Origin: Candidatus Mcinerneyibacteriota bacterium
GTDB lineage: Bacteria > Macinerneyibacteriota > Macinerneyibacteria > Macinerneyibacteriales > DSCS01
Direction: 5' to 3'
Assembly: GCA_016937175.1 (NCBI GenBank)
Contig: JAFGWL010000011.1
Coordinates: 1 to 57,184 of the forward strand
Length of the DNA stretch: 57,184 nucleotides
How positions within the stretch are numbered: the stretch's first letter is position 1; each line of letters opens with the position of its first letter. The translations under genes were made by a program, and so were the position numbers. Below the pieces are notes generated by a model that was not told the DNA's origin, made no database searches, and saw only the letters and a list, made by a program, of their open reading frames with translations. Of the stretch, positions 15,579 through 20,457 are shown piece after piece.

Positions 15579-15652
15579 GGCGGGATAGCTCAGCTGGCTA
15601 GAGCGTGCGGTTCATACCCGCAAGGTCCCCAGTTCGATTCTGGGTCCCGCTA
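15579..15652 (+). tRNA. elongator tRNA-Met (CAT)
   Basis: A 74-nt cloverleaf. Acceptor GGCGGGA pairs with TCCCGCT (G1-U72 wobble), D stem GCTC/GAGC, anticodon arm TGCGG-TTCATAC-CCGCA and T arm CCCAG-TTCGATT-CTGGG. The anticodon is CAT and CCA is not encoded. Elongator Met is preferred over lysidine-modified tRNA-Ile2, which cannot be fully excluded. It lies 15 nt after the initiator tRNA. Its last three bases are also the stop codon of the minus-strand gene that follows. Confidence 0.93.
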
Positions 15653-16075
15653 TTCTTTCAATCTGTTGTCTTCAATCGTTACATTACCTATTTCCGGAAG
15701 GATCTCGGAGATCTCGTCCAGCATCCGGTCAGTCCCGGCTCCGGGAGAGTAGATATAATGGCTTTTGGAGCGCCCTATCTGAAAGAGGAGTCTCCCGCGG
15801 GAAATAGAGATCTTTTGAAGTGTTGCCAGGGGGAAGGATTTATTATTGACGGTGATATGGTGTTCATGAAGAGCGATGATGCTCACAGGGTGGACAGCCA
15901 GAAAGATGAAAAGGTCCGTGGCCCCGAGGATGAGGCTTAGGATGACCAGCCAGGGCATGTTGCGTCCCGATCCCACCCAGATCCCCGCAGTGATGATGAA
16001 GACCGTTGAAAGAAGAAAAAGACCTTTGATAATACGGTTTTTGCGCGGACTGGAGAAGTCCCATCTTTTCTCCAT
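15650..16075 (-). CDS. small PH-like membrane protein
   Basis: 141 residues, function unknown. Two membrane segments (about residues 17-34 and 40-62) are followed by a soluble beta-rich part (HHITVNNKSFPLATLQKISI...). That layout, two helices then a PH-like sheet, is like bacterial PH-domain or YcxB-type membrane proteins. The TAG stop lies on the last three bases of the elongator tRNA-Met. GGAGG precedes the ATG and a promoter lies 28-56 nt upstream. It is divergent from a gene of similar design at 16188. Confidence 0.55.
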   Translation of the reverse strand: MEKRWDFSSPRKNRIIKGLFLLSTVFIITAGIWVGSGRNMPWLVILSLILGATDLFIFLAVHPVSIIALHEHHITVNNKSFPLATLQKISISRGRLLFQIGRSKSHYIYSPGAGTDRMLDEISEILPEIGNVTIEDNRLKE

Positions 16076-16102
16076 ATTTTGCCTCCTTCGTCAAGTTAAC
16101 TT

Positions 16103-16131
16103 ATTATAGCACAAGGGATTCCGTATGTAAC
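16103..16131 (-). promoter_or_regulatory. promoter for the leftward PH-like gene
   Basis: Read on the minus strand: GTTACA (16131-16126), 17 bp, TATAAT (16108-16103), a four-of-six -35 and a perfect -10. The start would be near 16097, about 22 nt before the ATG. Confidence 0.6.
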
Positions 16132-16187
16132 CCAAATCTAGAAAAATGTTGACGCCGTAGCCTTTATGTGTTACATCTTTAAGGGAA

Positions 16188-16589
16188 ATGACTGAGCAGG
16201 AATATAATTGGACAGTACATCTTTTCGCAAAATATAAAACAAGGGGGATCTTGATCACGCTTTTTTCGCTTTTTTTCGTCTTTTTTCTGGGCGCTTATGT
16301 AAACGCCTTTCTAGCCGCTCTCGCGGTAGCCTTGATCTTTGTCCCCAACATGAACTTTTTCCTGCCTATCCGGTATACCCTTTCGAGAGAAGGGATAACA
16401 GTGGCGACCCCTCTGAACGTAAAAGTCATCCCCTGGAGTGAAGTGAAGAGATTCAGGATCGTCAACGGAGGCCTTGTCCTCAACCCCCCGCAGGGGCGTT
16501 CCCTTTTCCGGAGGTCAAAGACGACTATTCTGTATGATATCCCCGATGCTGAAGGCATACGGGCGCTGGCCGAGGAGATGGTCGCATAA
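16188..16589 (+). CDS. PH-like membrane protein of the MutL locus
   Basis: 133 residues, not assigned to a named family. Two membrane segments (about 20-38 and 40-57) precede a beta-rich domain with RYTLSREGITVATPLNVKVI, PWSEVKRFRI and LYDIPDAEGIRAL, resembling the YcxB/PH-like pattern and the architecture of the 15650-16075 gene. AAGGGA precedes ATG 16188. A weak TTGACG at 16149-16154 could be its -35. Its stop overlaps the next start by one base, placing it first in the MutL operon. Confidence 0.55.
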   Translation: MTEQEYNWTVHLFAKYKTRGILITLFSLFFVFFLGAYVNAFLAALAVALIFVPNMNFFLPIRYTLSREGITVATPLNVKVIPWSEVKRFRIVNGGLVLNPPQGRSLFRRSKTTILYDIPDAEGIRALAEEMVA

Positions 16590-16966
16590 TGTATCTGTAT
16601 GATGACATCCCCGAAGAAGAACGCTACTTACTTCTGGATAAACTGGCCCGGGAAGTCGTCCGGTTCCATATGGCCACTCCGGCAGTGATCTTTCTGGAAA
16701 GCACGAAGTATATGAACCGTGTGGGTTCGCAGTTTTTGATCTTCGTCTCTCCCATCGTCACGGCTATCTTCACCAAATGGGAACTGGAAAAGTATGCTGT
16801 GATCATGGAAGAGAGGGAGAATATCGAATACCTGCTCGATAAGATCGAAGAGCTGGATCAAGAGCAGCAGGCCAAAGAGAAAGAATTGAAAGCTCAGCGT
16901 AAAGAAGAAAAAAGACTGAAGAGAAAGAACAGAAAAAGCATTTTCAAGAAAATAAGCGGTAAGTAG
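16589..16966 (+). CDS. hypothetical coiled-coil protein, MutL operon
   Basis: 125 residues, not recognised. The start MYLYDDIPEEERYLLLDKLA is followed by a hydrophobic segment (about residues 46-62) and a long charged helix (about 70-115) ending in a very basic tail (KRLKRKNRKSIFKKISGK). It might be membrane-anchored through the middle segment with a cytoplasmic coiled coil. It overlaps the upstream gene by one base and ends 13 nt before the MutL-like gene, so a joint role is likely but undefined. Confidence 0.6.
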   Translation: MYLYDDIPEEERYLLLDKLAREVVRFHMATPAVIFLESTKYMNRVGSQFLIFVSPIVTAIFTKWELEKYAVIMEERENIEYLLDKIEELDQEQQAKEKELKAQRKEEKRLKRKNRKSIFKKISGK

Positions 16967-16979
16967 AAAGGAGTCGTTC

Positions 16980-18914
16980 ATGGGAGATAAAAAAGAGATG
17001 AAAACCATTATTGCAACCGACTGCGGAAGTACAACGACAAAAGCAATTTTAGTGGAGAAAGTCGATGGGGAATACAGGCTGATCAGCCGCGGTGAGGCCC
17101 CGACCACTGTCGAAGCCCCTTTTGAGGATGTAACAAAGGGAGTCTTGAACGCGATCAACGAGATCGAAGACCTGTCAGACCGGACCTTTATCAAAGACAA
17201 TCTCTTGATGAAAGAGAGGAAAAACGATAAAGAGGGAATGGATATCTATGTCTCTACATCTTCAGCCGGCGGCGGATTGCAGATGATGGTGGCCGGCGTG
17301 GTCAAGTCCATGACCGGTGAATCGGCTCAAAGGGCTGCCCTGGGTGCCGGCGCTATCGTTATGGACGTCATCGCTACTAATGACGGCCGCCTTCCTCATC
17401 AGCGTATTGAGACGATCCGGAATCTCAGGCCTGATATGATCCTTCTGGCCGGCGGTGTCGACGGGGGGACCACGACTCATATCGCCGAACTGGCTGAGAT
17501 CATTTCAGCTGCCGATCCTCGCCCCAGGCTGGGAATCGGGTATAAGCTGCCTCTGATCTATGCCGGGAACTCGGCTCAGAAGGCCCGTGATATCGTCCAG
17601 GAGACCATAGGCGGAAAGATGGCCCTGGAAATCATCGATAATATCCGTCCTACTCTGGAACAAGAAAACCTGGGCCCTGCCCGTCATAAGATCCATAACC
17701 TCTTTATGGAGCACGTCATGCAGCAGGCTCCGGGGTACAAAAAACTCATGTCCTGGACCGATGCTCCCATCATGCCGACACCGGGTGCGGTGGGCTCCAT
17801 GATCGAGACAGTGGCCAATGAACGCAATATCGCTGTGGTCGGAGTGGATATCGGCGGAGCTACGACAGACGTCTTCTCTGTCTTTGAATCCGAAAACGAG
17901 AAGGGTGACATTGAGAAGGTCTTCAACAGGACCGTATCGGCCAACCTGGGAATGAGCTACAGTATCTCCAACGTCTTCGCCGAAGCCGGACTGGATAATG
18001 TCATGCGGTGGATGCCCATCCATATGGATGAGAAAAAGCTGCGTAATATAGTCAAAAACAAGATGATCCGCCCCACGACCATCCCCGAGACACTGGAATC
18101 CCTGGTCTTCGAGCAGGCCATCGCCCGAGAAGCGCTACGTCTGGCTTTTGAGCATCACAAGTCCCTTGCTGTGGGGCTGAAGGGTGTCCAGCAGCAGAGG
18201 ACCATCTCGGATGCCTTTGAACAGACCGAGAGCGGACAAAGCCTTGTGGATATGATGGAACTTAATATGATCATCGGAAGTGGCGGTGTCCTTTCCCATG
18301 CCCCGAGGCGTCATCAGTCTGCCTATATGCTCATCGACGCCTTCCTTCCTGAAGGAGTCACGACACTCACTGTGGACAGTATTTTCATGATGCCCCAGCT
18401 GGGTGTTCTGGCCCAGGTGAACAAACAGGCCGCTACACAGGTCTTTGAGAGGGATTGCCTGATCTACCTCGGAACCTGTATCGCTCCCGTGGGCCGGGGA
18501 AAGCTTGGACGTCCTGTCATGGAGGTCATCATCGAACATCCCCTGGATAAAGAGGCCTTTATCAAACGGGCCAAAGAGGAGTCTCCTCACTTCCCGGTGG
18601 TGGAAGATATGACGGGTAATGTCATCAAAAAGACACTTAACTACGGTGAGATGTACCGTGTTCCTCTGGATCTGGACGAGACAGCTAAGGTCACCGTGAA
18701 GCCTGTGAAGGGATTTGACGTAGGTAACGGGCCCGGGAAGGAAATGACCGTCAATGTCTCAGGCGGGACCACAGGGATCATCTTTGACGCCCGTGGCCGC
18801 CGTCCGTTCACGATTCCTGCCGGAGATAAAGAGCGTGTGCATAAGCTGCTGGAATGGGCCGCTGTCATGGAAGCGTATGACGTGGAAGCCCTGAAAAAAT
18901 ATATAAGCGAATAA
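16980..18914 (+). CDS. MutL/GlmL-family ASKHA ATPase
   Basis: 644 residues. ASKHA phosphate-1 motif DCGSTTTKAILVE (about residues 13-25), YVSTSSAGGGLQMMVAG (about 84-100), and phosphate-2 motif GVDIGGATTDVF (about 287-298) match the glutamate-mutase-associated MutL family. Relatives lie beside B12-dependent mutases and are thought to help reactivate them. Here no mutase or B12 gene is near; the partners are two small proteins upstream and the barrel/KOW protein downstream. The ATG at 16980 follows AAAGGAG. Family is secure; the substrate or partner is unknown. It is unrelated to DNA mismatch repair MutL. Confidence 0.8.
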   Translation: MGDKKEMKTIIATDCGSTTTKAILVEKVDGEYRLISRGEAPTTVEAPFEDVTKGVLNAINEIEDLSDRTFIKDNLLMKERKNDKEGMDIYVSTSSAGGGLQMMVAGVVKSMTGESAQRAALGAGAIVMDVIATNDGRLPHQRIETIRNLRPDMILLAGGVDGGTTTHIAELAEIISAADPRPRLGIGYKLPLIYAGNSAQKARDIVQETIGGKMALEIIDNIRPTLEQENLGPARHKIHNLFMEHVMQQAPGYKKLMSWTDAPIMPTPGAVGSMIETVANERNIAVVGVDIGGATTDVFSVFESENEKGDIEKVFNRTVSANLGMSYSISNVFAEAGLDNVMRWMPIHMDEKKLRNIVKNKMIRPTTIPETLESLVFEQAIAREALRLAFEHHKSLAVGLKGVQQQRTISDAFEQTESGQSLVDMMELNMIIGSGGVLSHAPRRHQSAYMLIDAFLPEGVTTLTVDSIFMMPQLGVLAQVNKQAATQVFERDCLIYLGTCIAPVGRGKLGRPVMEVIIEHPLDKEAFIKRAKEESPHFPVVEDMTGNVIKKTLNYGEMYRVPLDLDETAKVTVKPVKGFDVGNGPGKEMTVNVSGGTTGIIFDARGRRPFTIPAGDKERVHKLLEWAAVMEAYDVEALKKYISE

Positions 18915-18925
18915 GGAGGTCGAAG

Positions 18926-20053
18926 ATGGCTCAAGCATTTACACCCGGGTTAAAAGTAACTCAGGAAACCATAGTCAAGAAGAAGAGAATCCTTCCCCTG
19001 AAAGGGGAGGTGCTGGTCAAAGAGGGCGATAAGGTCTCCTATGATCAGGTCGTAGCCAAAACTGACCTGCCCGGGAATGTCATTCCGGTCAACATCGCCA
19101 ATCAGCTGGGAGTCGCAGCCAATGAAGTCCGGGAATGTATGATGAAAAAAGAGGGCGAGAAAGTGGAAAAGGGCGAAAAGGTCGCTCTCTACAAATCTTT
19201 CTTCGGCCTGTTTAAAAACTACTCTGTTTCTCCCATCACCGGAACCATCGAAAATATCTCTGATGTCACGGGACAGGTGCTCCTCCGTGAACCTCCCATC
19301 CCCATCGAAGTCCGTGCCTATATCGACGGAATCGTAACAGAGATCTTTCCTCAGGAGGGCTGCCAGGTCGAGACCATGGGCGCTTTCATCCAGGGGATCT
19401 TCGGGCTTTCAGGTGAACGCAGCGGAGAGATAGCTGTGATTGTGGACAATCCTAAAGAGGAGCTGACCGCCGACATGATCAAAGCTGAGCATAAAGGGAA
19501 AGTTGTGGTCGGAGGTTCCCTCATCCGTCTGGATGCCATTAAAAAGGCAAAACAGGTGGGGGTTTCCGCTGTTGTGGTGGGAGGTGTGGACGACAAGGAT
19601 CTCAGAGCTCTCTTAGGGTATGACATCGGCGTCGCCATCACGGGACACGAGAAGATCGGCTTTACCCTCATCGCCACAGAAGGGTTCGGAGAGATGTATA
19701 TGGCCCAGCGGACATTTGAGCTTTTAAAAGCCAATGAGGGGAAATGGGCTTCAGTCAACGGAGCCACCCAGATCCGCGCCGGCGTTATGCGTCCTGAGAT
19801 CATCATCCCGGTAGACAAAGCCTTTGACAAGAACAAAGGCGTCGACGAAGAGGGACGCGGCCTTCAGGTGGGAGATCCCATCCGTATTATCCGTGAACCT
19901 ATGTTCGGTGAGTTGGGGACGATCACAGAAATGGTCCCGGCCCTTCATAAGATGGAATCCGAGACCATGGTGCGTGTCTTCCGTGTTAAGCTTTCTAACG
20001 GGGAAGAGCGTATCGTCCCGCGCGCCAACGTGGAACGTATCGAGGTGAAATGA
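18926..20053 (+). CDS. barrel-sandwich and KOW-domain protein
   Basis: 375 residues. The N-terminal 130 residues have glycine-rich RnfC/biotinyl-like barrel features (GEVLVKEGDKVSYDQVVAKT, KVEKGEKVALYKSFFGLFKN, SPITGTIENISDVTGQVL). A middle alpha/beta part includes GKVVVGGSLIRLDAIKKAKQ and VVVGGVDDKDL. The C-terminus has a NusG-like KOW segment (VGDPIRIIREPMFGELGTIT) and ends in ERIVPRANVERIEVK. No catalytic residues are evident. It follows the MutL-like gene by 11 nt with AAGGAGG, which strongly suggests a shared function. Confidence 0.7.
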   Translation: MAQAFTPGLKVTQETIVKKKRILPLKGEVLVKEGDKVSYDQVVAKTDLPGNVIPVNIANQLGVAANEVRECMMKKEGEKVEKGEKVALYKSFFGLFKNYSVSPITGTIENISDVTGQVLLREPPIPIEVRAYIDGIVTEIFPQEGCQVETMGAFIQGIFGLSGERSGEIAVIVDNPKEELTADMIKAEHKGKVVVGGSLIRLDAIKKAKQVGVSAVVVGGVDDKDLRALLGYDIGVAITGHEKIGFTLIATEGFGEMYMAQRTFELLKANEGKWASVNGATQIRAGVMRPEIIIPVDKAFDKNKGVDEEGRGLQVGDPIRIIREPMFGELGTITEMVPALHKMESETMVRVFRVKLSNGEERIVPRANVERIEVK

Positions 20054-20457
20054 CAGGGCCTTCCCTGCAAAAGCTCCGTGCTCTTGCTGAAGAAGTGATT
20101 CAGAACTCATACAGCCCCTACTCGGGATTCCGGGTGGGGGCTCTTATTTTATCAGGAGAGGACGGTCTTCCCTTCAGCGGAGTTAATGTGGAAAACGCAT
20201 CCTTCGGGCTCACTGTATGTGCCGAGCGGAATGCCCTTTTTAAAGCGGTCGGGGAGGGGATACAGACCTTTTCTTACCTCTATATTCTTTCAGACGGAGA
20301 AGAACCCCCGCTTCCCTGCGGAGCCTGTCTCCAGGTCTTGAACGAGTTCTGCCCTCCCGATATGCCTGTGACTTGTGAGTCATGGTCCGGTGCGCAGCGG
20401 ACTTTTCTTCTGCGTGACCTTCTTCCCTTCGGTTTTTCTTTTCATAAAAGTGAATAA
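20050..20457 (+). CDS. cdd: cytidine deaminase
   Basis: 135 residues, the homotetrameric short form. Zinc and catalytic motifs are CAERNAL (Cys, Ala, Glu) and PCGAC; the start has SPYSGFRVGA and VNVENASFGLT. It converts cytidine or deoxycytidine to uridine for pyrimidine salvage. The ATG overlaps the KOW gene stop by 4 nt, so it is co-transcribed with the MutL set, probably without a functional link. The downstream tetR operator overlaps its stop codon. Confidence 0.95.
   Translation: MTGPSLQKLRALAEEVIQNSYSPYSGFRVGALILSGEDGLPFSGVNVENASFGLTVCAERNALFKAVGEGIQTFSYLYILSDGEEPPLPCGACLQVLNEFCPPDMPVTCESWSGAQRTFLLRDLLPFGFSFHKSE

Follow-up and report, generated by a model that had tools for sequence, protein, structure and literature searches.

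Four close-packed genes around a MutL-type ATPase

The window analyzed here is the whole 57,184-nucleotide (nt) stretch of contig JAFGWL010000011.1 from a Candidatus Mcinerneyibacteriota bacterium (assembly GCA_016937175.1; genome G000 in our sample). Positions 16188-20053 carry four close-packed + strand genes encoding, in order, a bPH-like protein, a small protein designated c2, a MutL-type ATPase, and a barrel protein (Table 1), with a 1-nt overlap at the first junction and spacings of 13 nt and 11 nt at the next two. A sequence-only reading of this DNA had called these genes an operon, and this was borne out by their packing on one strand and by their scores against profiles built from 80 foreign loci with the window excluded (57, 123, 1042, and 569 bits for bPH, c2, MutL, and barrel, respectively). 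Because these window-free profiles recognize all four window proteins, the set is not a chance grouping.

The 644-residue protein matches PF13941 across residues 10-493 (E 3.2e-129; 432 bits against a gathering cut-off of 27) and contains all three ASKHA motifs (phosphate-1, phosphate-2, and adenosine). It is predicted to be a MutL/GlmL-family ASKHA ATPase, as the sequence-only reading had proposed. Its scores lie below the NCBIfam cut-offs for GlmL-type proteins (240 against 475 for NF040745, 231 against 600 for NF040744, and 176 against 204 for TIGR01319), and a sequence search gave no PDB match. All four short MutLs tested passed TIGR01319; L224, a long form, and one fusion protein did not. 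By open reading frame (ORF) length, most long-form MutLs have about 570-690 amino acids (aa) and short MutLs 403-510. Among 22 long forms, the phosphate-1, phosphate-2, and adenosine motifs were found in 21, 22, and 21, respectively, and one miss reflects an ORF whose start was called too late. In a 47-row MutL tree, which has weakly supported deep forks and several long-branched rows, 8 of 9 short MutLs formed one set on a long branch (89/100), and the window MutL sits on a branch separate from the GlmL-type short MutLs. It is 74% identical over 509 columns to a Fermentibacterota MutL.

The AlphaFold2 (AF2) model of the barrel protein (mean predicted local distance difference test [pLDDT] 86, predicted template modelling score 0.68) comprises a barrel-sandwich N-terminal part, a swivelling domain, and a NusG/Spt5-like KOW domain. 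Matches to RnfC_N (E 3e-4; 21.2 bits against a cut-off of 25.6) and NQRA_N (E 1.4e-3; 19.3 bits against 25) did not reach the cut-offs. In VIA-align comparisons, the swivelling domain aligned with RraA 1j3l (Z 8.9, root-mean-square deviation [rmsd] 3.0, 125 aligned), AF_0055 (Z 9.2, 110 aligned), and rifampin phosphotransferase (Z 9.1), and the KOW domain with DSIF KOW6-7 (Z 9.3, rmsd 1.1, 52 aligned) and NusG 1m1g (Z 8.8); the best Foldseek match of the latter domain was T. maritima NusG. Searched by sequence, the barrel protein gave only chance-level PDB matches. Its identity to homologues outside its own genus is 48-69% in 11 of 12 rows and 37% in the remaining row.

The two small proteins had been read as membrane or coiled-coil proteins. 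This held for the 133-aa bPH-like protein, in which hydropathy predicts two transmembrane (TM) helices followed by a bPH-like domain; its match to PF10756 (bPH_6) is under the cut-off (E 0.0014), and it matches the profile from other phyla at E 4.7e-19. The 125-aa c2 protein, which matches its profile from other phyla at E 1.4e-39, shows no clear TM helix by hydropathy and is helical with a probable coiled-coil tail.

The ATPase half of an eight-gene, phylum-spanning module

A scan of GTDB species genomes with a barrel profile returned at least 576 relatives, and the neighbourhood counts below refer to the best 80 loci of these. They come from Cloacimonadota, Zixiibacteriota, Eisenbacteria, Poribacteria, WOR-3, Latescibacterota, Fermentibacteria, Planctomycetota, Coatesbacteria, Marinimicrobia, Nitrospira, a Bacillota family, and others. 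When ORFs were clustered over these loci, the top eight families were barrel, MutL, DUF6754, c2, c6, c3, c5, and bPH, most of them uncharacterized, and the ninth was glycine cleavage P protein (12 loci). Same-strand neighbour pairs included MutL-barrel (28), c2-MutL (18), DUF6754-c6 (17), c6-c3 (17), c3-c5 (16), bPH-c2 (11), and barrel-DUF6754 (11). The full order is bPH>c2>MutL>barrel>DUF6754>c6>c3>c5, and all eight families occur in 4 loci (L093, L136, L150, and L168) and at least seven in 7 loci. These operon counts are lower bounds, because calling by longest ORF overlooks some genes where the DNA is GC-rich; of the 80 loci, all of them matched by tblastn, 69 yielded a barrel ORF. We conclude that an eight-gene module spans phyla, with the four genes of the window making up its ATPase half and a membrane cassette of DUF6754, c6, c3, and c5 the other. 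The earlier suggestion of another kind of conserved module, one that has a membrane-associated ATPase, stands in that the order bPH-c2-MutL-barrel was found in other phyla, but it had missed the four membrane genes. Rearranged orders include DUF6754>c6>c3>c5>MutL>barrel (G120), DUF6754>c6>c3>c5>MutL (G333), and bPH>c2>DUF6754>c6>c3>c5 (G006).

DUF6754 proteins are built of a signal/TM segment, an Fn3 part, a TM segment, an alpha/beta domain, and a further TM segment. The c6 protein has about five predicted TM segments, c3 a soluble domain between two, and c5 several. Judged by hydropathy and charge, DUF6754 would have its Fn3 part outside and its own domain inside, and the domain of c3 would also lie outside. 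Sequence searches of the PDB with DUF6754 gave matches via the Fn3 part only (titin and similar), sequence profiles found no PDB relatives of c3, c6, or c5, and comparisons of DUF6754 with c3 and of c6 with c5 gave no homology signal. Outside the window, this genome carries three DUF6754 cassettes complete with c6, c3, and c5: a single one on contig C27 and a tandem pair on C34. In the foreign locus L164, a second DUF6754-like cassette (15843-18925) lies beside a normal one; it is strongly diverged and matches c3 and c5 weakly.

The two halves also co-occur across genomes. In a first sample of 60 genomes, the barrel was found in 14, and DUF6754 was present in 14/14 of these, in 0/14 of the barrel-negative genomes tested first, and in 1/32 of the remaining negatives; that last genome (G032) has a divergent barrel adjoining a divergent MutL. 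In 386 genomes, 97 have barrel and DUF6754, 5 DUF6754 alone, none the barrel alone, and 284 neither (Fisher 5.5e-86, where genomes are not independent); DUF6754 is thus present in 102/386 genomes and the barrel in 97/386, and the barrel is absent from 284/284 genomes without DUF6754. The 102 DUF6754 genomes span 68 families, in 64 of which the barrel was seen, and 96 of the 97 barrel genomes have a MutL. Twelve genomes have a MutL without DUF6754; ten of these MutLs are short ORFs (427-503 aa) and two are long (G089, 615 aa; G275, 607 aa). Excluded were 14 of the 123 MutL-positive genomes, 13 with sub-cut-off matches only and one (G146) with a 29-bit fragment. The module was found in 0/14 well-known control genomes.

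MutL and barrel are fused in a single ORF in nine genomes (G000-G002, G083, G150, G242, G288, G341, and G353); another fusion, from G108 (862 aa, with a weak score for the barrel), was placed in the tree but not counted here. These fusions imply that MutL and the barrel protein probably act together. Fusion genomes have a mean of 3.6 DUF6754 copies compared to 1.8 in others (p 0.0002; 0.005 at one genome per lineage), where copies were counted only up to about six per genome. Among the 49 genomes with several DUF6754 genes, 48 have a single stand-alone barrel gene, a pattern more in keeping with an ATPase that services complexes in common than with a fixed subunit. The fusion in this genome (contig C8, L020:8878-11925, - strand; 1,014 aa) begins with a helix-turn-helix (HTH) part (HTH_3, E 6.6e-15) and is a possible regulator of the module. 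Its gene adjoins a DAHP/KDO8P-synthase-family gene and, by reading, a sugar-phosphate isomerase gene.

Mutases, candidate clients, and rival explanations

The ATPase had been noted as lacking a mutase nearby, and this was correct: the one methylmalonyl-CoA mutase found in this genome lies on another contig (C6). Co-conservation of a mutase with the set would have marked the ATPase as a plain reactivase, and none was seen. Methylmalonyl-CoA mutase (PF01642) was found in 10/14 barrel-positive and 25/46 barrel-negative genomes (Fisher p 0.36), and glutamate mutase E in 0/14 barrel-positive genomes. Lysine 5,6-aminomutase was likewise found in 0/14, in a search that gave no positive-control match. 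A B12-binding domain occurs in 14/14 barrel-positive genomes, and that search is uninformative because 12/14 control genomes also have one. GlmE, GlmS, OraE, and OraS were then sought in 142 loci and were found in 0/131 module or other loci compared to 6/11 loci around further MutLs (L214, L215, L216, L219, L220, and L222), all around short MutLs; by ORF reading, five other short MutLs (L198, L199, L217, L218, and L221) have no mutase subunit beside them.

One genome brings these arrangements together. G120 has three MutL genes, two short and one long like that of the window. One short MutL adjoins OraE (1,341 bits, cut-off 800), the other lies between GlmS (212 bits, cut-off 110) and GlmE (742 bits, cut-off 390), and the long MutL is within the rearranged module given above. 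Thus, members of one family have different partners within the same cell, with the membrane cassette standing where a mutase would otherwise be.

The pairing of MutL with an adaptor that has a swivelling-type domain suggests a reactivase-like logic, in which the DUF6754 complex would be the client. One source gives MutL/GlmL a chaperone role in reactivating glutamate mutase (PMC4682846), and another describes the alpha subunit of glycerol dehydratase reactivase as having an ATPase domain and a swivelling domain, where ATP is used for subunit exchange (PMC7674605). As the latter source describes it, the diol/glycerol dehydratase reactivase type (DdrA/GdrA) combines ATPase and swivelling domains, to which MutL and barrel, sometimes fused, may correspond, homology of the swivelling domains being putative; unlike DdrA/GdrA, the module has membrane partners, and no reactivase beta subunit or dehydratase is among its recurring neighbours. 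GlmL (methylaspartate mutase accessory protein) and Or-4 (a GlmL-related ornithine degradation protein) share PF13941 and the ASKHA motifs with the window MutL, and they and long MutLs are alike encoded beside a presumed client. Unlike them, the window MutL falls below the GlmL-type cut-offs, carries a C-terminal extension, and sits on a separate tree branch, and the presumed client genes of the module are a membrane cassette rather than a B12 mutase.

For the mechanism, we infer that, within this well-supported module, MutL and barrel would join in a single ATPase complex on the cytoplasmic side, tethered to the membrane through c2 and bPH. In an ATP-driven cycle, it would assemble, activate, or remodel the complex of DUF6754, c6, c3, and c5, much as GlmL-type and dehydratase-reactivase ATPases do with their B12 enzymes. 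Contact with the client would be made by the barrel protein's swivelling domain, and several cassettes would share one MutL-barrel pair. We give about an even chance to a reactivase-like ATPase, with the barrel as adaptor, that serves several copies of the membrane complex by assembling or remodelling it. The broader statement, that about a quarter of our domain-wide genome sample encodes an undescribed ATP-driven membrane machine in which MutL and barrel drive or assemble DUF6754-c6-c3-c5, often in several versions per cell, we hold at slightly under even.

Several observations weigh against a reactivase-like role. Genome G009 (L033, L179, and L180), listed as 100% complete, encodes the barrel protein and has three DUF6754 genes, yet no MutL was detected in it. 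The divergent module MutLs of L210, L211, and L212 (3/3) fail the phosphate-2 pattern used, whereas an obligate ATPase should keep this motif; they are possible inactive ATPases. The DUF6754 model is poor (pLDDT 63; best VIA-align Z 6.1), and its fold was left unassigned. A common fold class (SCOP) for the barrel and reactivase swivelling domains is putative, and 1NBW does not appear among the VIA-align matches listed for the barrel. Finally, the data suit a motor or transporter equally.

In such a motor, MutL-barrel would power transport or force through DUF6754-c6-c3-c5 as a shared energizing unit with exchangeable cassettes, making a new primary-active machine. This would agree with the multiple predicted TM segments of the membrane proteins, with the single barrel gene of multi-cassette genomes, and with the operons shared by MutL and membrane subunits in G120 and G333. 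However, a relative of MutL has been described as a chaperone for reactivation, c3, c5, and c6 lack PDB relatives by sequence profile, and no substrate-specific gene recurs beside the module among the neighbour families of the 80 loci. We consider a motor less likely than the reactivase-like reading.

A link to gene expression is less probable still. Here the KOW domain would be the docking point between the ATPase and either RNA polymerase or the ribosome, tying membrane-protein synthesis or insertion to the module, and the HTH-MutL-barrel protein would be a regulator. The KOW fold is nearest NusG/Spt5, HTH_3 is fused to MutL-barrel in this genome, and a ribosomal protein and rpoA operon lies upstream of the window genes; but KOW/SH3 folds are common, with ribosomal and Tudor domains reaching equal scores, the HTH fusion is seen in G000-G002 only and stops before the KOW part, and the ribosomal-gene neighbourhood is not retained in other phyla. 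Unlike NusG/Spt5, which has this C-terminal KOW fold in common with it, the barrel protein has no NGN domain in its model and belongs to an ATPase-membrane module. For the translation-linked client of the sequence-only reading, the one observation in favour is this fold, and nothing was found in support of a radical-protein client. The weak, sub-cut-off likeness of the barrel part to the RnfC/NqrA barrel-sandwich subunits is joined by no Rnf or Nqr subunit among recurring neighbour families, and the window barrel protein, unlike these, has swivelling and KOW domains.

As a plain reactivase of B12 mutases working in trans, MutL would have clients such as this genome's methylmalonyl-CoA mutase. 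Such a reading agrees with MutL family membership and with that mutase on another contig, but we rejected it as highly improbable because mutases do not track the module (PF01642 is without a match in 4 of 14 barrel-positive genomes) and the mutases of G120 pair with other, short MutLs.

We found no paper naming DUF6754, PF20539, or PF13941 in the open-access literature, a search outside which most subscription journals lie, and one paper was found there on GlmL with glutamate mutase. In a wider open-access search, the 15 papers listed out of 127 all concerned KOW or barrel domains. If a reactivase-like ATPase does serve the DUF6754 complex, a broad slice of bacteria, here mostly uncultured phyla, keeps an uncharacterized membrane complex with its own ATPase, MutL-type reactivating ATPases extend beyond B12 enzymes, and the annotation of long MutLs as glutamate mutase accessory proteins is misleading. 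The tight three-way co-occurrence provides a concrete gene set for follow-up.

Feature coordinates and neighbouring genes

Table 1. Features of the four-gene set, in positions of the window.
Feature	Position	Strand	Basis
bPH-type small membrane protein, 133 aa; first in conserved order	16188..16589	+	ORF, profile, hydropathy
c2, 125 aa, helical, basic probably coiled-coil tail	16589..16966	+	ORF, profile
AAAGGAG ahead of MutL ATG	16967-16973	+	start region read
Long-form MutL-family ASKHA ATPase (predicted), 644 aa	16980..18914	+	PF13941, motifs
Phosphate-1 motif DCGSTTT, MutL residues 14-20	17019..17039	+	motif reading
Phosphate-2 motif DIGGATTD, MutL residues 290-297	17847..17870	+	motif reading
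Adenosine motif GSGGVL, MutL residues 433-438	18276..18293	+	motif reading
MutL C-terminal extension, residues 494-644, past Pfam MutL domain	18459..18911	+	domain limits, ORF lengths
Barrel protein, 375 aa	18926..20053	+	ORF, AF2 model
Barrel-sandwich N-terminal part, ~residues 10-128	18953..19309	+	weak RnfC_N/NQRA_N matches, model strands
Swivelling beta/beta/alpha-like domain, ~residues 130-297	19313..19816	+	VIA-align
KOW/SH3-type domain, residues 312-375	19859..20050	+	VIA-align, Foldseek

Some further genes lie beside the module in the 80 loci. Glycine cleavage P-protein genes stand upstream, often directly before bPH or c2, in 12 (L094, L101, L114, L121, L130, L136, L144, L164, L165, L166, L168, and L169), and ExbB genes stand downstream in 8 (L113, L123, L124, L130, L140, L146, L151, and L168), six of which also have ExbD and TonB. 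These neighbours look lineage-bound and were not used as functional hints. In L100, L111, L113, L124, L127, L129, L140, L142, L146, and L151, the gene directly before the barrel gene, and after MutL where MutL was seen, encodes a secreted protein of about 260 aa with a C-terminal anchor.

In the window, a cytidine deaminase gene (cdd, 20050-20457) overlaps the end of the barrel gene by 4 nt; it is kept in G001 and G002 and is outside the families recurring in other phyla. Divergently placed ahead of the set, 15650-16075 on the - strand encodes a 141-aa protein that resembles the bPH-type protein in having two hydrophobic stretches followed by a small domain. It had no Pfam match at E 0.01, and a homologue is present in G001.

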